Below, one piece after another: positions 7,953 through 33,585 of a stretch of DNA of 64,000 nucleotides. The stretch comes from a bacterium. GTDB taxonomy: Bacteria; Vulcanimicrobiota; JABDET01. The translations under genes and the position numbers were made by a program. Every line of letters begins with the position of its first letter. Position 1 is the first letter of the stretch. Under the pieces are notes generated by a model that did not search any database, had not been told where the DNA came from, and saw only the letters and a program-made list of their open reading frames with translations. The DNA lies in the NCBI GenBank assembly GCA_021817145.1, contig JAKAVV010000006.1:1-64000 (forward strand). Direction: 5' to 3'.

Positions 7953-9116
7953 CTAAACCGCTCCAGTTTTTGCAATACCTCTTCTGGAACGAGTGACGCG
8001 GTGATGTAAAATGTGAGAGGCAAAAATTAAAACTACTGCAGCCAGAAGAATCAGGAATACATCCAGCAGATGATGCAGGATAATAGAAACAGCAATAATA
8101 AGCAAGGTCAAAAACGCAGCTAGAACAAAAGTTGCAATTCCAATTAAATTTCCAGCAAGATTCCCTAAAAATGGAATAACATCCAGCAGAGCGCGAATCG
8201 GAGAAAGACACAGAAACAGCCCTAACCAGATTCCCGCAAAACCAGCCCCTCTTAAAACCCAGGTCCATAAAACATATTCATGGTGAAGAGTTTCAATTGC
8301 CTGCTGCTTTGTTCCGCGGAAAATCCGATACAGCTCCTGATGGGAAGGGCTGAAATAAGGGACAATCTGGTTTCCTTGCAGAGCCCCTAAAATCGTTCCC
8401 TTCAGATTTTCAGGAATCATAGAATATTGAACTTGAAGATCTCCAACTTGAGGGTTATTCAGAGAATCTCCCGCATTTTCAGGAACATAAATCCCGTTTC
8501 CAGTTAAAGAATCCCCAGGAGGGATTTTAACTATCTCAGAGGATAGAGAAAGAGGGGAAAAGGAAGGAAGAGAAATGTTCCCTAGATTTACATGAAATGA
8601 TCCAATAGCAGCGGTTCCTGCGGTAAATCTTCCATTACTGATCTCCTGAGAGGGGTTTTCATGCCCCTGGGGATACTTAAAAGAGGAGGAATTCGGAGGA
8701 TTAAATGTCCATTTTTTTTGATATGTATAAGTTGTGGTGGTTGTAGAAGATCCCCCTAAATGTTTTTGCGTTGAGCTGCTCTGATTCTCGACCCAGGCAT
8801 ACATTTCCACACGCCTTTGAACAGCAAGGTAGGGTCCAGAGTTTAAAAAAAGCCCATCCCCTACTTTTTGATTCGAGATCAGAGTTCCTGTGATAGAAAT
8901 AAGCTTCCCTTTCAGGGAACCAGGAACATGAGAACCAGAGGGGCTGACAGAAACAGCGGTTTTTGCCAGGACTGAAAGATCAGCTCTTCCTTCATTCCAG
9001 TATAAGAGAATAGAAGCAGCGATTAAGAGGATAATGCCAAATAATACAGCTTTTATGGAAGAAAGTATATCGCTTCCATACCCGCTTTCTGCAACCTCAG
9101 TAAATTGATTCTGCAT
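7953..9116 (-). CDS. TMEM43-family membrane protein
   Basis: A 387-residue protein with one N-terminal membrane helix (about 22-42) followed by WNEGRA, the bacterial TMEM43 signature. A long extracytoplasmic beta domain follows, then three or four C-terminal transmembrane helices (from about residue 285). The family is a distant relative of the eukaryotic inner-nuclear-membrane protein LUMA; its bacterial role is unknown. It is the last gene of a seven-gene minus-strand operon and begins one base after the preceding stop. Confidence 0.82.
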   Translation of the reverse strand: MQNQFTEVAESGYGSDILSSIKAVLFGIILLIAASILLYWNEGRADLSVLAKTAVSVSPSGSHVPGSLKGKLISITGTLISNQKVGDGLFLNSGPYLAVQRRVEMYAWVENQSSSTQKHLGGSSTTTTTYTYQKKWTFNPPNSSSFKYPQGHENPSQEISNGRFTAGTAAIGSFHVNLGNISLPSFSPLSLSSEIVKIPPGDSLTGNGIYVPENAGDSLNNPQVGDLQVQYSMIPENLKGTILGALQGNQIVPYFSPSHQELYRIFRGTKQQAIETLHHEYVLWTWVLRGAGFAGIWLGLFLCLSPIRALLDVIPFLGNLAGNLIGIATFVLAAFLTLLIIAVSIILHHLLDVFLILLAAVVLIFASHILHHRVTRSRRGIAKTGAV

Positions 9117-9117
9117 T

Positions 9118-9924
9118 TTACTTTGTTAGAATTGGATTCACAATATCCAGAGCAGGATAGCACTCGCAGCTATTGCTCATATCAGTGGTTACGATTTCAA
9201 GGGTGCGAACCCCTTGAATTGGGACAGTTACATTTACAGGGGAGCTAGAGGAGTTTACCTGAACTGTTTTCAAGGTTCTGCCATCCCCTAAAAACGAAAC
9301 GTTTACAACTGCTGCATGGTTGTTGTTATTCACACCCGTATGGTCATCCAGTCCAAGGGTTGTTTGAAGAGTGGTAAATCCGCGGTGATCCAGCCAGTAC
9401 TTAAGGGTTACTCCTCCTCCATTATAATCCTGGACAAAATATCCACTCCCATAAGTAACTCCATTGATATCCATAGGTGGGGTCCAATTTCCTGACAAAG
9501 CGCTTTGGATATTTGAGTCGCTTAATGGAAGCCATACTGAAGGAGCTGAGAAATAGTGGGCTTTTTCATTGTTCACCACCACAATCGTGTTCGCTGTTGT
9601 GTAGGCTTTAGCAGGCAGATTGGTGAGTGGAACCTGCTTGACAGCTTCAGGATTGGAGCTGTTTGCTGTCTCAGATGAGCTGGCTCCTTGACCCCTGCTG
9701 TCGGACAGTTCATATCCTCTGGAAGTATGGGCAATGCGCAGATTAAGGGCGCGCGCCATATCGGAAACAGGGGCATAAGCTTTCCCATTCAAGATAATCA
9801 CCTGGTTTGAGATGACAACTCCATTAAAAAAAAGCTTCATCCGGTTTGCGGCGTAAGCAGCGTATGCAGCAGCCAGAATGACAGCAGCAGCGAGTAAAAA
9901 CCCTTTCCATTTTATTTTTTTCAT
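9118..9924 (-). CDS. Secreted protein with copper-amine-oxidase-N-like and NPCBM-like domains
   Basis: A 268-residue exported protein. A signal peptide or anchor spans about 7-26. Residues about 30-75 (VVISNQVIILNGKAYAPVSDMARAL) resemble the copper amine oxidase N-terminal (stalk) repeat used by surface proteins. The C-terminal 150 residues resemble the NPCBM carbohydrate-binding fold: SALSGNWTPPMDINGVTYG, WLDHRGFTTL, a GLDDH motif and FLGDGRTLKTVQV. The same C-terminal domain occurs in the two tandem-duplicated genes upstream (12329-13222, 14592-15482). Its ATG overlaps the preceding stop by four bases. Confidence 0.78.
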   Translation of the reverse strand: MKKIKWKGFLLAAAVILAAAYAAYAANRMKLFFNGVVISNQVIILNGKAYAPVSDMARALNLRIAHTSRGYELSDSRGQGASSSETANSSNPEAVKQVPLTNLPAKAYTTANTIVVVNNEKAHYFSAPSVWLPLSDSNIQSALSGNWTPPMDINGVTYGSGYFVQDYNGGGVTLKYWLDHRGFTTLQTTLGLDDHTGVNNNNHAAVVNVSFLGDGRTLKTVQVNSSSSPVNVTVPIQGVRTLEIVTTDMSNSCECYPALDIVNPILTK

Positions 9925-10958
9925 TTTACTCCTCCTTTATTGATTTTTATTATTGGCTTGCTTTTCGGCAGTTTTTTTATTTTTTTTACTTTTCCAAATT
10001 TGACTTTTAAATGGTATAGGATTTCTCCTGAACCGGAAACTAGTTTGTCAGGATAGAATAGATTGGGGGTAGGGGATACCCCTTCAAAAGTCACAGTTGA
10101 GCCGGCTTTGAACTTGCACTCCGTTAGCCTGCCATTCTTTTTCTTGCATTTTAGCTTGAATTTTGGATCCGAGGGAGTAAACAGGGCATGCGTGATAAGA
10201 AAGCCGAAATTAATCTGGTGCTGCTCAGTCGTATAGAAATAAGGGCACCCCAGTGTTTCAGCTAAATTTGCATTTGCCGGATAAAGAGCGGCTGGAAGCT
10301 GTAAATTTCTCAAATTAATCACTGCGGTATAAAGCATTTTCCGCTTCAAATGACAAGGAGTGTAGATCCATTTACCACTTGGACTGGGTTCCTGACTTGG
10401 ATGTTCACCGTGAGCATCTACTGTTACGGGAAAATTAAAAATCAATATTCCAGAATAAGGATTATATATTCCAGGAATTTTCTTTTCTTTCCAAACAAAA
10501 TGCGCAGATAGATGTCCTGGATCCGGAGTGTCAAGCCCGACCTCTAATCCTAAAGTTTTCTTACCGGATATTGAAACAAGAGCAGGCTGGATGACATATC
10601 GTTTTTTCTTGCGCTTTTTTTGTTTCCCTTGAATCTTAATCATTCTATTGCCCATGGCTGTTTTTCCATCAGAATACTGAATCACTGCGAATATCTTATA
10701 AGAGCCGGGCTTTTTATAGATATGTCGAATGCTTATTCCGCTTCCACTGCTGCTGTCTCCAAAAATCCAGGTAACTCTCAAAATAGAAGCATTTGAGACA
10801 GAAGAGTTAGCTTTAAATGAAATTGATTCACCAGGTTTAGGGTGTTTCGGAATAAATGAAATTTGTACGGGCAAAAACTTGGCTTGAACTGTTGGTCTCC
10901 AGAATATTAAAAAGGAAAAAAAGACTGCGGAAATAAATGAAACCCATTTTTGCCTCAT
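9921..10958 (-). CDS. Secreted PKD-domain protein
   Basis: A 345-residue protein with a signal peptide (about 1-26). Residues about 30-112 form a PKD domain: ILRVTWIFGDSSSG, then HIYKKPGSYKIFAVIQYSDG. A basic linker (QGKQKKRKKKRY) follows, then a cysteine-containing domain I do not recognise, and a basic tail. PKD domains usually mediate extracellular protein or polysaccharide contacts. It lies 12 bases after the preceding operon gene and overlaps the next by four bases. Confidence 0.75.
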   Translation of the reverse strand: MRQKWVSFISAVFFSFLIFWRPTVQAKFLPVQISFIPKHPKPGESISFKANSSVSNASILRVTWIFGDSSSGSGISIRHIYKKPGSYKIFAVIQYSDGKTAMGNRMIKIQGKQKKRKKKRYVIQPALVSISGKKTLGLEVGLDTPDPGHLSAHFVWKEKKIPGIYNPYSGILIFNFPVTVDAHGEHPSQEPSPSGKWIYTPCHLKRKMLYTAVINLRNLQLPAALYPANANLAETLGCPYFYTTEQHQINFGFLITHALFTPSDPKFKLKCKKKNGRLTECKFKAGSTVTFEGVSPTPNLFYPDKLVSGSGEILYHLKVKFGKVKKIKKLPKSKPIIKINKGGVK

Positions 10959-10970
10959 GATCTTCCTCCT

Positions 10971-12305
10971 TCACTTAAGCGTAACAATCTGCGCGGCATT
11001 GGAATATGGGGTTCCACTTTCAAAGAGATTAATGCCCCCCCCTTTAACAGAAAAAACAGGAGCCTCAGCGATGTAGTAATAATAGACTCTCCCAGGGACG
11101 CCAGTCGGATCGGTAAAAGAATAAATCGGTAGTTTCTGGATGCAGTATGATTTAGAGATGTGTCCTGCCTTGTGGATACATCCTACTGGATTGGGCCATC
11201 CGTAAAGCACAAAATTGAAAGTTTTAATGCGGGCTTTAAAGGGATCCACTTTCCCTGCTCCCAGAAGAACTCTAGAGCGAACAATACCCAGGTTATATGC
11301 GCTGTGGTCAGACGGCATACCTGCAGGGGTAAAGAAAAGAACATTATTGGGAGAAAATCGAGCCTGCCCATCCAGAAAATACTCAACAGGGATAAATGCC
11401 CGCTGAGGAGTACTTCCAACATAAGGGGAGGGTTTAACGGATCCAGGAGCAAGAGTGAGATTGGCGACAGCGCCCCCTCCAGATAAAACATGAACAAAAA
11501 CACCTGGCTGCGGCTGGTTGAACTCTTGAGAAAACTTTGCGCGCATCGCCGGCGTCATAAACGGACTTTGCATCATGAAATTCCCATATGCTTGCATCAA
11601 TGGGTTTGTGTTTTGGGTTGTCAGGGTATATCCCGTTTTATCTGCCAACACATAGTAATCCCCAGGAGAAACAGGAATGGTTGCCTGCCCGTTTTTATCA
11701 GCTCGAAAAAAGGTTGAAAACCCGACATCCATATTGGGTCCAAATCTCTTGGATGGTTTAAATTTTGTCCCATACTGCCCTGATGGTGTATTCATCGTTT
11801 TCATGAGTAATGAAAATGGATTTTTCATCACGGTCACCATAGCATAAGGAACAGGACCAGCGCCGCTAAAAACATGGACAATAATGTTGGAATGGGAAGG
11901 TATAAGAGTGAAATCTAAATTTCCGATGACATTTCTGCCAAATTTCTGAAAATCCACGAGTGTTTTTTGAGAAAGATACCCTCTTTTTGAGACTTCGACA
12001 TAATATTTTTCATTGATAGGATGTTTCTTTTTAACGCACAGATTATTTTGTCCAACTCCAACCGCATAATTTCCATTCCCTGCAGAAAGGGCAAAACCCA
12101 TTCCGCACCCTTGATTCGCTTTTATCTTGTGTTTCTTGACCTTTGCCCCAATCACGAAAATTTTAGCCCCGCCAATCGGTTTTCCAGTGTCACCTGCTTT
12201 GATATTCCCTTCCACAAAAGCGGGCTGAAACCCGCCTGGAAAAGCATGAGCCATCATCGGAAAACATAAAACCATGAATAAAAGAAAAAAAATAAAATTT
12301 TTCAT
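10971..12305 (-). CDS. Secreted carboxypeptidase-regulatory-like protein, copy A
   Basis: A 444-residue exported protein. I start it at 12305 (ATG) because AGGAAG lies just upstream and a signal peptide follows immediately (MKNFIFFLLFMVLCFPMMAHA); the upstream 23 codons overlap the preceding gene. It contains two carboxypeptidase-regulatory-like/prealbumin-like beta domains (VEGNIKAGDTGKPIGGAKIFV; VHVFSGAGPVPYAMVTVMKNP) with the strand motif ATIPVSPGDYYVLADKTGY. It is a paralogue of the gene at 13234-14568, which has exactly the same length. Confidence 0.78.
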   Translation of the reverse strand: MKNFIFFLLFMVLCFPMMAHAFPGGFQPAFVEGNIKAGDTGKPIGGAKIFVIGAKVKKHKIKANQGCGMGFALSAGNGNYAVGVGQNNLCVKKKHPINEKYYVEVSKRGYLSQKTLVDFQKFGRNVIGNLDFTLIPSHSNIIVHVFSGAGPVPYAMVTVMKNPFSLLMKTMNTPSGQYGTKFKPSKRFGPNMDVGFSTFFRADKNGQATIPVSPGDYYVLADKTGYTLTTQNTNPLMQAYGNFMMQSPFMTPAMRAKFSQEFNQPQPGVFVHVLSGGGAVANLTLAPGSVKPSPYVGSTPQRAFIPVEYFLDGQARFSPNNVLFFTPAGMPSDHSAYNLGIVRSRVLLGAGKVDPFKARIKTFNFVLYGWPNPVGCIHKAGHISKSYCIQKLPIYSFTDPTGVPGRVYYYYIAEAPVFSVKGGGINLFESGTPYSNAAQIVTLK

Positions 12306-12328
12306 ATAATCTTCCTCAAGTATCTGCC

Positions 12329-13222
12329 TCATTTCTGAAGGCTCGGCTGGACAATATCCAGACTGGGGAAACAACTATGACAATTATCGGGCATTATCTT
12401 GATTTTTAGGGTATGAATCCCTGTAATCGGAACAGTTACTCTTATCGGATTGTTAGAAGAATCCACTTGAACTGTTTTTAAAATTCTTCCATTTCCTAAA
12501 AAAACAACTTTAAAAACTGCTTGATTATCATTATCCACATGGTCATCCAATCCAAGAGTGGTTGTCAGAGTTGTAAATCCGCGGTGATCCAGCCACCAGA
12601 CTAAAGACACTCTGCCTCCATTATAAGTTTGGAAGAAATATCCATGATTATAAGTCTGTCCATTGATATCCATGGGAGGGGTCCAATTTCCGCTCAAAGC
12701 ATTTTTAATTTTGGAGCGATCAATCGACTGCCAGAGAGTAGAAGGAGTATTGATAATATTTGCTTTTGCGTTATTGACCACCACAATAGAATTATAGTAG
12801 AGAATCGCTTTTGCGGGAATATCTGTGAGAGAAAGGGTCTGTGCTGCTCCATTTCCTTTGGTCCATGTGGAACCTTTAAATCCTCCGCTTTGACTGAGGA
12901 GTTTTAAAGTTCTGCCTCCTGCCTCAATCCTGACTGTTAAGGAGCCGTGATGCATGAAAGTTCCTTTAGGAACATCCACCCAGCTTCCTTTCACAAGATT
13001 TTCGTGGATTGAACCTGTAAAAATATTTGCCCATTCAGGGTGGGTTTGGCTTTTTTCTCCATACCAAAAGAGTTTATGCCCTACCTGTGTTATGTAATAA
13101 GTCCCTCCATCATTACAAGTCCAGGTTCCAGTTAGATTTTTTCTGGATCGCGCAAAACTGGCGGGACTAAACATGACTGAAAAAACAAAGAACAGCAGTA
13201 AAATTGAAAGAAGTTTTCTCAT
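12329..13222 (-). CDS. Secreted NPCBM-like protein, copy A
   Basis: A 297-residue exported protein with a signal peptide ending near SFARS (about 25). Residues about 28-110 form a small beta domain (GTWTCNDGGTYYITQVGHKLFWYGE ... KGSWVDVPKG) found in many uncharacterised exported proteins. Residues about 130-297 are an NPCBM-like sugar-binding domain (SALSGNWTPPMDI-type core, WWLDHRGFTTL, GLDDH). It is nearly identical to the gene at 14592-15482, so it arose by recent tandem duplication. It ends 23 bases before its operon partner. Confidence 0.8.
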   Translation of the reverse strand: MRKLLSILLLFFVFSVMFSPASFARSRKNLTGTWTCNDGGTYYITQVGHKLFWYGEKSQTHPEWANIFTGSIHENLVKGSWVDVPKGTFMHHGSLTVRIEAGGRTLKLLSQSGGFKGSTWTKGNGAAQTLSLTDIPAKAILYYNSIVVVNNAKANIINTPSTLWQSIDRSKIKNALSGNWTPPMDINGQTYNHGYFFQTYNGGRVSLVWWLDHRGFTTLTTTLGLDDHVDNDNQAVFKVVFLGNGRILKTVQVDSSNNPIRVTVPITGIHTLKIKIMPDNCHSCFPSLDIVQPSLQK

Positions 13223-13233
13223 TTTTTTCTCCT

Positions 13234-14568
13234 TTATTTAAGTGTAATAATCTTCACTGCATTGGAATAAGGTTTTCCGCTTATATTAAATGTATTGATT
13301 TTCTCCCCACCTGTTAACGAAGGGAGTGGAGCCTCGAAAATGTAGTAGTAATAACTTCTCCCAGGTGTTCCAGTTGGATCAGTAAAAGAATAAATATCAT
13401 TCACACAGTATTTGGGGGAGATGTGTCCTGGTTTATGGATGCATCCCGCTGGGCTTGCTGTGCCGTAAAACAGAAGGTCGAAACTTTTAAAGTGGGCTTT
13501 AAATGGATCCACTTTTCCCAATCCAAGAAGTATTCTAGATCGAACAATGAACCAGAGTGACCTATGCTTCTGACGCATGATGGATCGAGGAGTGAAGAAA
13601 AGAACATTATTGGGAGAAGATCTCGCATGCCCATCTAAAAAATACTCAACAGGAACAAATGGCACCTGGGGAGAACTTCGAACAAAAAGGGTGGGTGTGT
13701 TAGCCGTTAGATTTTTAGCAAGAGAAAGATTGGCAGTCACATCATCTCCCTGTACAACATGAACAAAAGCCCCTGGCTGCGGCTGGTTGAACTCTTGAGA
13801 AAACTGCGCGCGCACTGCTGGGTTCGTATATGGAAGCTGCATCATGAAATTCGCATATCCTTGCATCAGCGGGTTTGGGTTTTTGGTTGTCAGGGTATAT
13901 CCTGTTTTATCTGCCAATACATTGTAATCCCCAGGTGAAACAGGAATGGTGGCCCTTCCATTTTTGTCAGTCCGAAAAACGGTTGCAAGTCCTACTGCAA
14001 AATTGGGTCCAATTTTATGCGTGGGTTTAAATTTTGTCCCATACTGCCCTGATGGTGTATTCATCGTTTTCATGAGTAATGAAAATGGATTTTTCGTCAC
14101 GGTTACCATAGCATAAGGAATGGGGGCTCCTGCATCTGTTGTCACTTGAACAAGAATATTCGAATAGGACTTGACAAGAATAAAATTTAAATCAATGACA
14201 TTTGTGCCAAGCTTCTGGAAATCCACCAGTTTTTTCTGGGGAAGATATCCTCTTTTTGAAACTTCGACAAAATATTTTCCATTGATAGGGTGTTTCTTTT
14301 TAACGCACAGATTATTTTGTCCAACTCCAACCGCATAATTTCCACTCCCTGCAGAAAGGGCAAAACCCATTCCACACCCTGCATTCGGTTTTTTCTTACT
14401 TGCTCCAATGACCCAAATTTTAGCCCCGCCAATCGGTTCTCCCTTATCCCCTCCTGTGATATTTCCTTGCACATAAGCTTCGCTGAACCCGCCTGGAAAA
14501 GGGGAAGCATGAGCCATCATGGGAAAACATAAAACCATGAATAAAAGCAAAAAAATAAAATTTTTCAT
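13234..14568 (-). CDS. Secreted carboxypeptidase-regulatory-like protein, copy B
   Basis: A 444-residue paralogue of the gene at 10971-12305. The start at 14568 follows an AGGAGG site and opens directly into the signal peptide shared with copy A. The same two beta domains are present, and the NPFSLLMKTMNTPSGQYGTK stretch is identical in the two copies. Divergence is concentrated in the segment around residues 300-360 (the loop before the VPVEYFLDGHARSSPNNVLF stretch). It lies 11 bases before copy A of the NPCBM gene. Confidence 0.78.
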   Translation of the reverse strand: MKNFIFLLLFMVLCFPMMAHASPFPGGFSEAYVQGNITGGDKGEPIGGAKIWVIGASKKKPNAGCGMGFALSAGSGNYAVGVGQNNLCVKKKHPINGKYFVEVSKRGYLPQKKLVDFQKLGTNVIDLNFILVKSYSNILVQVTTDAGAPIPYAMVTVTKNPFSLLMKTMNTPSGQYGTKFKPTHKIGPNFAVGLATVFRTDKNGRATIPVSPGDYNVLADKTGYTLTTKNPNPLMQGYANFMMQLPYTNPAVRAQFSQEFNQPQPGAFVHVVQGDDVTANLSLAKNLTANTPTLFVRSSPQVPFVPVEYFLDGHARSSPNNVLFFTPRSIMRQKHRSLWFIVRSRILLGLGKVDPFKAHFKSFDLLFYGTASPAGCIHKPGHISPKYCVNDIYSFTDPTGTPGRSYYYYIFEAPLPSLTGGEKINTFNISGKPYSNAVKIITLK

Positions 14569-14591
14569 ATAATCCTCCTCGAGTATGCGCC

Positions 14592-15482
14592 TTATTTCTG
14601 AAGGATCGGCTGGACAATATCCAGAGCAGGGGCACAAGGACAATTATAGGAGATTATTTTGATTTTTAAAGTGTGAATCCCTGTAATCGGAACAGTTACT
14701 CTTATCGGATTGTTAGAAGAATTCACTTGAACTGTTTTTAAAATTCTTCCATTTCCTAAAAAAACAACTTTAAAAACTGCTTGATTATCATCACCTACAT
14801 GGTCATCCAATCCAAGAGTGGTTTTTAAAGTTTTGAATCCACGGTGATCCAGCCACCAGACTAAAGACGCACTGCCTCCATCATAAGTTTGGAAGAAATA
14901 TCCATGATTATAAGTCTGTCCATTGATATCCATGGGAGGGGTCCAATTTCCGCTCAAAGCATTTTTAATCTTAGAACGATCAATTGGCTGCCAGAGAGTA
15001 GAAGGAGTATTGAAAATATTTGCTTTTGCGTTATTGACCACCATAATAGAATTAACATGGAGAATCGCTTTTGCTGGAATATCTGTGAGAGAAATGGTCG
15101 GGATGGCTCCATTTCCCTTGGTCCATGTGGAACCTTTAAATCCCCCCTTTTGACTGAGGAGTTTTAAAGTTCTGCCTCCTGCCTCAATCCTGACTGTTAA
15201 GGAGCCGTGATGCATGAAAGTTCCTTTAGGAACATTTGACCAGCTTCCTTTCACAAGATTTCCGTGGATTGAACCTAAAAAAACATTTGCCCATTCAGGG
15301 TGGGTTTGGCTTTTTTCTCCATACCAAAAGAGTTTATGCCCAACCTGAGTTATGTAATAAGTCCCTCCATCATTACAGGTCCAGGTTCCAGTCAGATTTT
15401 TTCTGGATCGCGCAAAACTGGCGGGACTAAACACCAGAGAAAGAACAAAGAACAGCAGTAAAATTGAAAGAAGTTTTTTCAT
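14592..15482 (-). CDS. Secreted NPCBM-like protein, copy B (first gene of operon)
   Basis: A 296-residue paralogue of 12329-13222 with the same signal peptide, GTWTCNDGG beta domain and NPCBM-like C-terminus. AAGGAGGAAAAAC precedes the ATG. It is the most upstream of seven closely spaced minus-strand genes (gaps 23, 11, 23, 12, -4 and 1), so the operon promoter should lie just above 15482. The leader shares an identical 21-base block with the leader of the gene starting at 16928. Confidence 0.8.
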   Translation of the reverse strand: MKKLLSILLLFFVLSLVFSPASFARSRKNLTGTWTCNDGGTYYITQVGHKLFWYGEKSQTHPEWANVFLGSIHGNLVKGSWSNVPKGTFMHHGSLTVRIEAGGRTLKLLSQKGGFKGSTWTKGNGAIPTISLTDIPAKAILHVNSIMVVNNAKANIFNTPSTLWQPIDRSKIKNALSGNWTPPMDINGQTYNHGYFFQTYDGGSASLVWWLDHRGFKTLKTTLGLDDHVGDDNQAVFKVVFLGNGRILKTVQVNSSNNPIRVTVPITGIHTLKIKIISYNCPCAPALDIVQPILQK

Positions 15483-15698: not shown

Positions 15699-16928
15699 TT
15701 ATATAGCAGGGGTGGGCTGCTGAAACAACTTTTTCGGCGCGGGAAGATTCACTTTTATTTTTTTAAAGATGTATTTCACCTCGGCAGGGGTCGCAGCAGC
15801 GGGATTGTTCACTTCATCGATCATTTCAGAAGGAAATTTCACCCCATCCACTGTTTTCCAGGTCTTGACTTTGAGCATCTCTCTTCCAGGGTCTGTATTA
15901 TCCCCGATCTGAACTTTGTCCGGAAGGAATGTTTTTTTATTGATGTAAGCTGTTATTGGTTCTCCTCCATCCGGGTTCATTTTTAGAAGATATTCAGTTC
16001 CGCCTGTGGGTTGATAACTTACTTTCCCTGGAATGCCTCCTGAGGTCAAATATGCAAAAGTCTGCCAGTAGATCCATGAGATTCTACGTTCCAGGTCTGG
16101 TCCTGACATTTGACCTGTGCTGGTGCTTCCACTGGAGGTTCCAATAAGCCCTTGATCCCCTGCCAGCATCCATCCTTGAGGGGAATCGGACGCAATCGTA
16201 ATCAAGCATTTTCCAGGATGTTTCCCAACAACAGTAAAAGAACCCTCCCCTCCTGTTACAGAAGAGGGGGTAATTTTTGCAATTCCGTTACAGGTATCGC
16301 TTTCAAAAAGGGTTCCCGTAAAATTCTCTTCTCGAGCCTGGAAAATAGAACGAGGTAATGCATTCGTATGGAACTTGTAATAACCCAGATTAAACTTAAT
16401 GGAGAATAGATTTACACAGAGAGGATTTGGTGATTTTGAGCAGTTGCCTCCAGGCGCTGGCAGCCAATATTGACTTGAAGAAGTTACTGTCACTGGTATC
16501 TTGACAGTTTGCTGTCCATTGGAAAGAACCACTAAAATAGGGGGCGCAAACATGGCAGTTGATCGAACTTCAGCCCGGGCATTCCCATCAGAAGTCATCC
16601 ATTCTTTCGCCTCGGTGTTTCCCATAGATAATTGCAGAACCTGCCCGCCAGAAGGGTTTCCAACATTGACCTGGATTTTTCCGAACTTAAAATAAAGGGT
16701 TTTGATTTTCTGGATGCTGCCCAATCCGCCAAGAGCGTCTGCCATTTTTTTGAGAAGAAGAGGAGTGGTCATTTTGATGTAAGTCTGTTTTTTGAGAGTT
16801 GATTTTTTGGATGTCTGAGCTTTTGCGCTGCCGCCTGTGACTGGAGTTTTTGCAAAAAGAACGCCTGTCAGAAGAATTCCCGCAAGAATAAAAAAGAAAA
16901 ATTTTCTTGCTGAGAATACTTTTTTCAT
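15699..16928 (-). CDS. Secreted protein with LolA/LppX-like C-terminal region
   Basis: A 409-residue exported protein with a signal peptide (about 10-27, AGILLTGVLFAKT). It then has KKMADALGGLGSIQKIKTLYF, typical of the start of outer-membrane lipoprotein-sorting (LolA-like) folds, and a C-terminal KVKTWKTVDGVKFPSEMID segment common in the same superfamily. The middle (about 150-260) is a cysteine-containing insertion (CSKSPNPLC, DTCNG, GKCLI). Substrate is unknown. A 52-base scrap of its 3-prime end recurs at 18552-18603. Confidence 0.7.
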   Translation of the reverse strand: MKKVFSARKFFFFILAGILLTGVLFAKTPVTGGSAKAQTSKKSTLKKQTYIKMTTPLLLKKMADALGGLGSIQKIKTLYFKFGKIQVNVGNPSGGQVLQLSMGNTEAKEWMTSDGNARAEVRSTAMFAPPILVVLSNGQQTVKIPVTVTSSSQYWLPAPGGNCSKSPNPLCVNLFSIKFNLGYYKFHTNALPRSIFQAREENFTGTLFESDTCNGIAKITPSSVTGGEGSFTVVGKHPGKCLITIASDSPQGWMLAGDQGLIGTSSGSTSTGQMSGPDLERRISWIYWQTFAYLTSGGIPGKVSYQPTGGTEYLLKMNPDGGEPITAYINKKTFLPDKVQIGDNTDPGREMLKVKTWKTVDGVKFPSEMIDEVNNPAAATPAEVKYIFKKIKVNLPAPKKLFQQPTPAI

Positions 16929-28667: not shown

Positions 28668-29777
28668 TTAGAAAGTCCAGGTTCCATAAGTGCACTGGTT
28701 TCCCTGGTCTCCATTATGGACCACATAAACTCCTGGGAATTCATGAGGGGCGGTCCATACATTGATGTTTTCTCCATTTAAGCAGTAAAATGGAGGCTTT
28801 GATCCTGCGGGTTCGTCTGCCTGAAAGTTAGCGATGGTGCCGACTAATTGGGCATCAGGGAGCTGTTCAACTGTTACATTAGGGACATTAGTGAGGGTTA
28901 CTGTTGTGCCCTGCCATACGCCTGAGAATTGGGGGGACCCACTTGGCGGCGGCGGCGGCGGCGGAGGCGGAGGAGGAGGAGGTGGTGGTGGTGGTGGCGG
29001 TGGCGGTGGCGGTGAGAAAGTCCAGGTTCCATAAGTGCACTGATTTCCCTGGTCTCCATTGTGGACCACATAAACTCCTGGGAATTCATTAGGGGCGGTC
29101 CATACATTGATATTTTCTCCATTTAAGCAGTAAAATGGAGGCTTTGATCCTGCGGGTTCGTCTGCCTGAAAGTTAGCGATGGTGCCGACTAATTGGGCAT
29201 CAGGGAGCTGTTCAACCGTTACATTAGGGACATTAGTGAGGGTTACTGTTGTGCCCTGCCATACGCCTGAGAATTGGGGGGACCCACTTGGCGGCGGCGG
29301 AGGAGGAGGTGGAGGTGGTGGTGGTGGTGGTGGTGGTGGTGGTGGAGAGAATGTCCAGGTTCCATAAGTGCACTGATTTCCCTGGTCTCCATTGTGGACC
29401 ACATAAACCCCTGGGAATTCATTAGGGGCGGTCCATACATTGATATTTTCTCCATTTAAGCAGTAAAATGGAGGTTTTGAAGTAGGAAGTTCATGCGCAA
29501 GAAAATTGTGGATTTGACCGACTAATTGGGCATCAGGGAGCTGTTCAACCGTTACATTAGGGACATTAGTCAGTCTGACTATTTGTCCATGCCATACCCC
29601 TTGAAACCACCGCTGCATAGCAATAGGAAGATGAGGATGATCAGCGGCTGAGAAAGATCGAATTCGAATTGCTGCTGCTGCCGTTTTCCAGTTAGGAAAT
29701 GCCTGCGCTGTTTGATGGGAAGAATGACCTGAGAGAAATAAGTAAATAATAAAAAGTAAAATGAGAAATTTTTTCAT
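28668..29777 (-). CDS. Secreted triple-repeat protein with polyproline linkers
   Basis: A 369-residue exported protein with a signal peptide (about 1-29). It has three copies of one domain of about 90 residues (FSGVWQGTTVTLTNVPNVTV ... KPPFYCLNGENINVWTAP ... FPGVYVVHNGDQGNQCTYGT), each with two cysteines. The copies are joined by uninterrupted proline runs of 19 (encoded at 29289-29345) and 23 (28944-29012). Domains 2 and 3 are almost identical in DNA with a 345-base period; domain 1 is diverged at its start. I do not recognise the domain. Translation would depend strongly on EF-P. Confidence 0.8.
   Translation of the reverse strand: MKKFLILLFIIYLFLSGHSSHQTAQAFPNWKTAAAAIRIRSFSAADHPHLPIAMQRWFQGVWHGQIVRLTNVPNVTVEQLPDAQLVGQIHNFLAHELPTSKPPFYCLNGENINVWTAPNEFPGVYVVHNGDQGNQCTYGTWTFSPPPPPPPPPPPPPPPPPPPSGSPQFSGVWQGTTVTLTNVPNVTVEQLPDAQLVGTIANFQADEPAGSKPPFYCLNGENINVWTAPNEFPGVYVVHNGDQGNQCTYGTWTFSPPPPPPPPPPPPPPPPPPPPPPPSGSPQFSGVWQGTTVTLTNVPNVTVEQLPDAQLVGTIANFQADEPAGSKPPFYCLNGENINVWTAPHEFPGVYVVHNGDQGNQCTYGTWTF
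28675..29365. repeat. 345-bp tandem repeat with GGN-type triplet tracts
   Basis: Two nearly identical 345-base units within the triple-domain gene, each ending in a triplet tract (69 and 57 bases of tgg/cgg/agg on the plus strand). A third, diverged unit lies at about 29366-29620. The tracts differ in length by four codons, suggesting slippage. Confidence 0.85.
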
Positions 29778-32311: not shown

Positions 32312-32352
32312 TATGAAGAGGAGAGGTAAAAAACTATTTTAAAAAGGACACA

Positions 32353-33585
32353 CTAAGGGCCGAAGGGGTTGGAGGAGCTGCTGCCAGAGGAGTAGCCTCC
32401 TGAGGAAGAGCCTCCCCCGCTGAAGGGATTGGAGGAGCTGCTGCCAGAGGAGTAGCCTCCTGAGGAAGAGCCTCCCCCGCTGAAGGGATTGGAGGAGCTG
32501 CTGCCAGAGGAGTAGCCTCCTGAGGAAGAGCCTCCCCCGCTGAAGGGATTGGAGGAGCTGCTGCCAGAGGAGTAGCCTCCTGAGGAAGAGCCTCCCCCGC
32601 TGAAGGGGTTGGAGGAGCTGCTGCCAGAGGAGTAGCCTCCTGAGGAAGAGCCTCCTCCGCTGAAGGGGTTGGAGGAGCTGCTGCCAGAGGAGTAGCCTCC
32701 TGAGGAAGAGCCTCCCCCGCTGAAGGGATTGGAGGAGCTGCTGCCAGAGGAGTAGCCTCCTGAGGATGAGCCTCCCCCGCTGAAGGGATTGGAGGAGCTG
32801 CTGCCAGAGGAGCTTGAACCTCTGCCGGCAAAGGGGTTGCTGGAACCGACAGGATTGCTGACAGAACCGCTCTGGCTAGATCCATTTTGATTTACATTAA
32901 TAATGGTTGTGGATGAACCTCCATAAACTGGGTAAGGGATATATCCACAGCCATCGTATGGCAGAAAAGTGTCGTAGCAGTTAGGGTAATAAGGGATGGG
33001 GATAACAACAGGCTCAATGTTCATTTCATTGTCCACGAAATAATTGTTCAAGAAGTTCCTGTAAAATTGTTCTGGATTTTTGGGAACAGGAATGGCTACG
33101 CTGACATCATTGGGGTAGTAATCTGACAAATACCCAGTGACTTCTGCGGCATTATTAGGATTAGCAGCCAGAGTGTTTTCGACTTTTTGAATTAAATACC
33201 GATTTTGGTAATTTGCAGGATTCTGTAAATTTACATTTCCCTGCGTTGTTCGCGGCGGCACAACACATACGAATGCTTCTGAATTCGGATCAGCATTACT
33301 TGCATAAGTATGGACAGAGCATTGGGCATTGGGGTAGCTGTTCTGCAGCCAGTTGACAATATTTCCTTGTGCTGCAGTATTCCCGCAGCCAGCTAATGCC
33401 CCTGCTGCCATGCCGGCTACCAGCAGTCCGCCGACAATCCTTCCTTTTTTGCCGTGCATAACTTTGTCCAAAAGCGATTCTTTTTTACTTTGAGTGTTAG
33501 AAGAGGCTGTCTCTAAAGGCGCCTGGCTTCTATTTGCGGGATGAAACTGCTGTAACCTGGGTGAAGTTTTATAATGTATTTTCAT
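32353..33585 (-). CDS. Lipoprotein-like protein with Ser/Gly repeat tail
   Basis: A 410-residue protein. GGGAGG precedes the ATG at 33585. An unusual cytoplasmic-looking head of about 48 residues comes before a hydrophobic segment ending in LAGCGN (Cys67), which looks like a lipobox placed far from the N-terminus. Residues about 70-240 form a Cys/Tyr/Pro/Asn-rich domain (PYYPNCYDTFLPYDGCGYIP). The C-terminus is seven near-perfect 20-residue repeats, NPFSGGGSSSGGYSSGSSSS, encoded by 60-base DNA repeats. It probably forms an operon with the gene at 33625. Function unknown. Confidence 0.78.
   Translation of the reverse strand: MKIHYKTSPRLQQFHPANRSQAPLETASSNTQSKKESLLDKVMHGKKGRIVGGLLVAGMAAGALAGCGNTAAQGNIVNWLQNSYPNAQCSVHTYASNADPNSEAFVCVVPPRTTQGNVNLQNPANYQNRYLIQKVENTLAANPNNAAEVTGYLSDYYPNDVSVAIPVPKNPEQFYRNFLNNYFVDNEMNIEPVVIPIPYYPNCYDTFLPYDGCGYIPYPVYGGSSTTIINVNQNGSSQSGSVSNPVGSSNPFAGRGSSSSGSSSSNPFSGGGSSSGGYSSGSSSSNPFSGGGSSSGGYSSGSSSSNPFSGGGSSSGGYSSGSSSSNPFSGGGSSSGGYSSGSSSSNPFSGGGSSSGGYSSGSSSSNPFSGGGSSSGGYSSGSSSSNPFSGGGSSSGGYSSGSSSSNPFGP
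32358..32812. repeat. 60-bp coding tandem repeat, about 7.5 units
   Basis: Units repeat with an exact 60-base period from about 32358 to 32812. They differ by only a few substitutions (for example agcctcccccgc versus agcctcctccgc). The repeat encodes the Ser/Gly-rich tail on the minus strand. Low divergence implies recent expansion or ongoing homogenisation, so copy number is likely variable. Confidence 0.95.

Follow-up and report, generated by a model that had tools for sequence, protein, structure and literature searches.

The described systems that come closest to the locus reported here are the NPCBM/NEW2 proteins (PF08305), the LolA/LolB superfamily (3bk5, 3buu, the DUF1329 protein 4z48 and P. 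gingivalis LolA3, 9tp6), the Gram-positive CnaB/immunoglobulin-like (Ig-like) pilins and adhesins such as SpaA and the TIE protein, and the TMEM43/LUMA family (PF07787), homologous domains of which are noted in bacteria, without a function, in the relevant passage of PMC9307560. We analysed the first 64,000 nucleotides of the bacterial contig JAKAVV010000006.1 (assembly GCA_021817145.1; hereafter the window), in which seven consecutive, tightly packed open reading frames (ORFs; g1 to g7) on the minus strand reach from 15482 down to 7953 and encode NPCBM, CarboxypepD-like, PKD and TMEM43 proteins. By sequence comparison, the conserved unit at this locus is a two-gene pair that starts one gene upstream of g1 and encodes a LolA-like protein (u1 in the window) and a CarboxypepD-like protein (CarbD; g2 and g4). 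We read it, with a roughly even chance of being right, as a secreted envelope module that pairs a LolA-like ligand binder with a multi-Ig rod, is patchily and perhaps laterally distributed, and has been elaborated with NPCBM and TMEM43 proteins. Gene order, duplication, domain content, predicted folds and patchy distribution are the observations on which this reading builds; its functional part is taken from the folds and the gene order. The parts are known domains, and what is new is their combination, the LolA partner and the patchy cross-phylum distribution.

Like NPCBM/NEW2 proteins, g1, g3 and g6 exceed the curated Pfam cut-off of 23.9 (bit scores in Table 1), in agreement with the first-pass annotation, which had placed an NPCBM domain in the genes at 9118, 12329 and 14592; they differ in carrying no glycosidase by Pfam, their heads being either a GTWTCNDGG (WTCN) domain or a short stalk-like domain, and by analogy they may bind glycans. 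The predicted fold of u1 resembles LolA/LolB structures (Z 12.3–13.3) but contains an Ig-like insert that resembles domains of the S-layer protein SbsC and of the phage SU10 tail, and the protein stays below the Pfam LolA_like cut-off. The CarbD model matches the multi-Ig chains of Gram-positive pilins and adhesins, although at low template-modelling (TM) scores, and the CarbD domains are CarboxypepD_reg (PF13620) by Pfam. The CarboxypepD-like, PKD and TMEM43 members named in the first-pass annotation are recovered by Pfam (cut-offs 32.3, 27 for PF18911 and 23.3, respectively), except that only g2 of the two CarboxypepD_reg copies passes; g7 differs from the described TMEM43/LUMA proteins as a bacterial member that ends a run of secreted-protein genes. 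The Pfam scan took in ten proteins, those of the seven-gene run and of three flanking genes, and NCBIfam recognised none of the seven genes above its cut-offs. The operon is not described in the portions consulted of the literature on NPCBM operons and surfaces, bacterial TMEM43 homologues, LolA/CarboxypepD operons and Eremiobacterota in acid mine drainage, and no literature was found that links NPCBM with the copper amine oxidase N-terminal domain; subscription journals lay mostly outside the scope of both searches.

A LolA-like gene lies directly upstream of the CarbD gene at 12 of 13 public loci (11 genomes), and at the thirteenth (G099:C136) a 3′ fragment of the LolA-like gene stands between CarbD and the contig end. 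Ten of these loci come from the same phylum outside the genus, one from a sister genome of the same genus and two from genomes titled Proteobacteria; outside the genus, only the LolA–CarbD pair was seen of the whole run. The loci were obtained by scanning named genomes with two peptide patterns derived from the CarbD alignment, which returned 65 stretches, 15 relatives and 13 loci and can miss distant relatives. Within the phylum, CarbD matches at E 0.001 were found in 15 of 149 genomes, several of them weak; weak matches were seen in G003, G034 and G036. The LolA profile matches 89 of the 149, a figure that cannot be taken as support for the cassette, since many of the matches listed are confined to the inserted Ig-like domain (model positions ~150–233) or, in longer frames, to the C-terminal half of LolA. 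No CarbD match was found on plasmids or phages, and none of 21 pattern matches on viral contigs was a relative. One further stretch (G051:C17:18517–19751) resembles a broken cassette remnant, with LolA pieces followed by a CarbD piece holding two stop codons.

Table 1. Features of the locus, in window coordinates.
Feature	Coordinates	Strand	Description
u1	15699..16928	-	LolA/LolB-fold protein, 409 amino acids (aa), probably secreted; inserted Ig-like domain at ~residues 140–250; conserved partner of CarbD
g1	14592..15482	-	296 aa; signal-like start, WTCN head, C-terminal NPCBM (44.2 bits)
g2	13234..14568	-	CarbD protein, 444 aa; CarboxypepD_reg 47.4 bits
g3	12329..13222	-	Tandem copy of g1, 297 aa; NPCBM 44.6 bits
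g4	10971..12305	-	CarbD protein, 444 aa, tandem copy of g2; modelled as a chain of Ig-like domains; CarboxypepD_reg 26.8 bits
g5	9921..10958	-	PKD-domain protein; PKD_4 39.2 bits; not found in sister genome
g6	9118..9924	-	268 aa; short head (by eye stalk-like or like a copper amine oxidase N-terminal domain), NPCBM 49.2 bits
g7	7953..9116	-	TMEM43-family membrane protein, 387 aa; 174.2 bits
Tandem duplication of the WTCN-NPCBM plus CarbD unit	10971..15482	-	Two-copy direct repeats

The association of these genes, whose absence from every relative would have counted against the first-pass annotation, is kept in the only same-genus genome compared (G001, FK4.bin95, contig JAJYZB010000002.1), where the order is LolA-like, CarbD, another gene, NPCBM, NPCBM and TMEM43, followed by the three convergent genes also found in the window. 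TMEM43 is 80% identical and holds the same position in both, and g6 has two sister counterparts adjoining TMEM43. The sister's middle gene (L063:13674–14369), between CarbD and NPCBM, encodes a single-domain relative (49.8% identity) of the protein encoded at 28668–29777 in the window; in the latter, one domain is repeated about three times, with long stretches of proline between the copies. Each genome also holds one stand-alone NPCBM gene and a second cluster with LolA-like, CarbD and NPCBM genes, so that LolA-like and NPCBM genes are present in four of four CarbD-bearing clusters of the genus, two per genome. In transcription order, the second cluster of the window genome (L062:9034–12348) reads NPCBM, LolA-like, CarbD and that of the sister LolA-like, CarbD, NPCBM. 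From this comparison, NPCBM and TMEM43 appear as genus-level additions to the LolA–CarbD pair.

The run has the intergenic gaps first reported for it (23, 11, 23, 12, −4 and 1 bases, in order), u1 is set off from g1 by 216 bp, and by eye a GGAG- or GAGG-type ribosome site precedes six of the seven genes, with none ahead of the TMEM43 gene. The interval 9118–15482 originally given for all seven genes contains six, the TMEM43 gene lying outside it; the run itself was real, and the gene set drawn around it left out u1, which belongs to the conserved cluster. Judged by eye from their N-termini, u1 and the proteins of the run are probably extracytoplasmic or secreted; the high isoelectric points (8.8–10.1) are not distinctive, since 45% of the 53 window ORFs exceed 8.5. 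The further proposal of a surface-assembly system was not borne out: by Pfam, neither a sortase nor any other assembly enzyme is among the ten proteins, no genome-wide or dedicated sortase/LPXTG search having been made. Promoter-like sites (25, versus 19.7 in shuffles) and terminator-like sites (13, versus 11.7) are near the shuffled level, and we therefore make no claim about operon ends; Rfam gave no match in the window at gathering scores. Elsewhere in the window, the protein at 32353–33585 ends in tandem copies of a SSGGYSSGSSSSNPFSGG-like unit, and a second long frame (32334–32885) is open over the same repeat.

The interleaving of NPCBM and CarbD genes, initially ascribed to domain shuffling, goes back to duplication of a two-gene unit. 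Two-copy direct repeats, spaced by 2257–2269 bp and 74–93% identical, span the WTCN-NPCBM plus CarbD unit, and the encoded proteins are 89% (g1/g3) and 71% (g2/g4) identical; three independent shuffling events, which we had considered, are ruled out, g1/g3 and g2/g4 being one tandem duplication. Synonymous divergence (dS) is uneven, 0.15 for g1/g3 versus 0.54 for g2/g4, and the proportion of synonymous differences (pS) between g2 and g4 climbs to 0.60–0.62 in the last two slices, similar to the 0.54–0.56 that separates either from the sister CarbD. After the tandem duplication, the NPCBM copies were probably homogenised; the uneven divergence is also compatible with duplication in two steps.

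One element of shuffling, a head swap, stands. A tree of 28 NPCBM domains unites g1 with g3 (99/95), these two with g6 (97/93), and all three with the genome's own C7 and the sister's C8c proteins (86/83). All members of the g6/C7/C8c group except g1 and g3 carry a short head with a YxPxxDxxRALN stretch (motif read by eye), from which we infer that the WTCN head replaced the short one; most simply, a single swap within the genus suffices. Long branches of L024 and two more sequences meet the genus clade, so deep joins there may be false. The tree includes the G043, G035 and G055 copies (L020, L026 and L027) and leaves out those of G132 and G064 (L050 and L054), and five loci found by protein search only (L050 and L052–L055) were not added as such. 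Within the phylum, heads of the WTCN type are also encoded in G017 (a 179-aa frame) and G080 (a 585-aa frame). The copper-amine-oxidase-N-like character first attributed to the g6 head was not recovered, Pfam giving no Cu_amine_oxidN1 (PF07833) match there at E up to 1; two further matches, of 18.5 bits in a C32 paralogue of the window genome and of 14.5 bits in a protein of the sister, fall below the cut-off of 24.2. A lone gene with a weak match of this kind plus NPCBM (L064:6987–7757) adjoins a quinolinate-synthase-like gene, named by eye, and its sister equivalent (L065:7901–8704) has the same neighbour.

The AlphaFold model of u1, built from 11 sequences (predicted local distance difference test (pLDDT) 66.7, predicted TM score (pTM) 0.48), shows a LolA-type half-barrel with a beta-sandwich insert. 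It aligns in VIA-align to 3bk5 (Z 13.3), 3buu (13.0) and 4z48 (12.7), and Foldseek matches it to a DUF1329 protein at E 4.4e-6; u1 is filed here as a predicted LolA-fold protein, with lipoprotein carriage a possible role, and not as a LolA. Over 73 residues, the insert superimposes on S-layer SbsC (4uid) with Z 7.4, a root-mean-square deviation (rmsd) of 1.7 and 22% identity; over 90 residues, it superimposes on a virion protein of phage SU10 with an rmsd of 3.0 and Z up to 9.1. Such values may reflect the general Ig-like arrangement. Pfam names no domain at the insert in the LolA-like proteins scanned; the insert is absent from two u1 relatives (L067, L071), and similar sequences recur across the phylum, as single or tandem copies, in different proteins, many of them large (L109, L106, L107), with frames of up to 1,782 aa among the matches listed. 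The CarbD model (g4; 13 sequences, pLDDT 70.6) resembles chains of Ig domains, with a best Foldseek E of 3.8e-9 and matches listed mostly to Gram-positive pilin and adhesin Ig chains. Profile searches against solved structures gave weak matches (best E 0.24 for LolA and 0.026 for CarbD), and sequence searches with g3 and g7 gave none at E up to 10.

The two loci titled Proteobacteria, L087 and L089, side with different groups of the window's phylum, which is presumably Eremiobacterota. Both trees are unrooted. In that of LolA, a single split (100/99) groups the L087 protein with family f8 and the L089 protein with the window genus; that of CarbD unites L087 with two f8 sequences (97/99) and L089 with the window genus (82/85). 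Most simply, these trees suggest, the cassette is patchily common to Eremiobacterota and two proteobacterial metagenome-assembled genomes (MAGs) by lateral transfer in one direction or the other. In L087, an ORF downstream of the cassette looks by eye like an IS21-type transposase. The cassette there is also followed by two small genes (L087:7116–8409) that, judged by eye, resemble neighbours of the cassette in the Eremiobacterota loci L086 and L090; if so, the segment in common would be larger.

Several points weigh against the envelope-module reading. Placement in the envelope is drawn from N-termini and folds; both models are middling, Foldseek query TM-scores are low (0.26–0.32 for the best four LolA-type matches of u1, 0.12–0.18 for CarbD), and LolA_like (PF17131) scores 14.7 bits in u1, far below its cut-off of 30, with no match in three u1 relatives scanned. 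A distant CarbD relative in G002 (34% identity) has no adjoining LolA-like gene, and no LolA match was found in G002, the only other genome of the family and 67% complete. NPCBM genes stand between the u1 and CarbD genes in the window, and functional linkage is argued from two genomes of the genus, which is little to build on. Two observations speak against a single machine: among the 149 phylum genomes, the window genome alone has a full-length match to g5, next to a weak partial match in G010; and in eight of eight other phylum genomes with matches to both NPCBM and TMEM43, all of them drafts, the two are found on separate contigs. The GC content of the cassette is lower than that of its flanks in all ten loci measured and is for that reason weak evidence of transfer, and part of the cross-phylum presence could be mis-binning.

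The isolation of g5 and the separation of NPCBM from TMEM43 outside the genus, together with the different gene in the middle of the sister locus and the uneven divergence of the duplicates, are also what would be expected if the run were nothing out of the ordinary: rapidly evolving genes for unrelated secreted proteins of adhesin type, with a common promoter and destination but no joint machine, whose duplications and head swaps are the routine drift of surface proteins. We regard this as possible, if distinctly less probable than a module, given that LolA–CarbD adjacency at 13 of 13 loci in 11 genomes, and the joint presence of NPCBM, LolA-like and CarbD genes in all four CarbD-bearing clusters of the genus, exceed what drift would lead one to expect.

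The same constancy of pairing, and best-matched folds that are LolA, LolB and LolA-like proteins, could instead indicate a dedicated lipoprotein or lipid trafficking pair, with the LolA-like protein a true carrier and CarbD or a neighbour its client. This we hold to be improbable: inspection by eye, without a dedicated test, shows no obvious lipobox in CarbD, and the same match lists include LolA-fold domains of proteins with other roles, RseB and VioE.

Slightly less probable again is that the proteobacterial presence is an artefact of binning or naming and the cassette no more than an envelope operon of Eremiobacterota. The titles of the public loci say MAG, and no full-length match was found in order-mates of the two MAGs (0 of 299 other sampled genomes and 0 of 95 others), with two weak partial matches in the 300-genome sample; the genus of L089 holds one genome. 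Yet the L089 contig itself carries spoT (67.5–69.9% DNA identity to E. coli spoT over 25–29% of the query, in the three rows listed), which puts the cassette and a proteobacterial gene on one contig, and on the 67-kb L087 contig a DnaE-like polymerase stands beside two smaller genes, ORFs identified by eye in an arrangement that we take to be the proteobacterial imuA-imuB-dnaE2. An anti-invader conflict system with NPCBM as sensor is barely credible, for although NPCBM domains are described in predicted conflict systems in the part of PMC8195603 consulted, the sensors described there are intracellular and fused to or beside TIR, kinase or caspase effectors, whereas the proteins here have signal-like starts by eye and Pfam found no such effector or NTPase domain in the ten scanned.

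Taking the secreted envelope module as the preferred reading, we envisage an operon-like series of genes, built around the two-gene LolA–CarbD cassette, whose products are envelope proteins outside the cytoplasm. The LolA-like protein would, from its fold, hold or carry a hydrophobic ligand in the envelope, CarbD, with several Ig-like domains in a row, would act as a rod for spacing or structure, the NPCBM proteins might attach the whole to polysaccharide of the envelope or matrix, and TMEM43 would be the membrane component. Within the genus NPCBM proteins accompany the cassette, with TMEM43 added at the window and sister loci; in the window lineage one NPCBM copy gained a new head and the NPCBM plus CarbD unit was duplicated in tandem.

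A bolder reading, which we consider doubtful, is that of a laterally mobile two-gene envelope module of acidophiles, in which a LolA-fold carrier with an S-layer-type Ig insert and the multi-Ig rod that invariably accompanies it would form a surface structure common to unrelated acid-mine bacteria, with host-specific glycan-binding proteins grafted on. Under the preferred reading too, the isolate names suggest acid mine drainage as a shared habitat, their codes presumably denoting mine sites in southern China. Eremiobacterota are reported in acid mine drainage sediments (PMC9061769) and as MAGs in acid mine drainage (PMC8357290), in passages that make no mention of the isolates compared here.

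The locus preserves a stepwise record of how secreted proteins changed: a head was exchanged, a unit was duplicated in tandem, and the copies diverged to unequal extents. If the LolA–CarbD cassette does cross phyla in acid mine drainage, it would be a candidate envelope module of acid habitats and could offer a way into the surface building of uncultured acidophiles.

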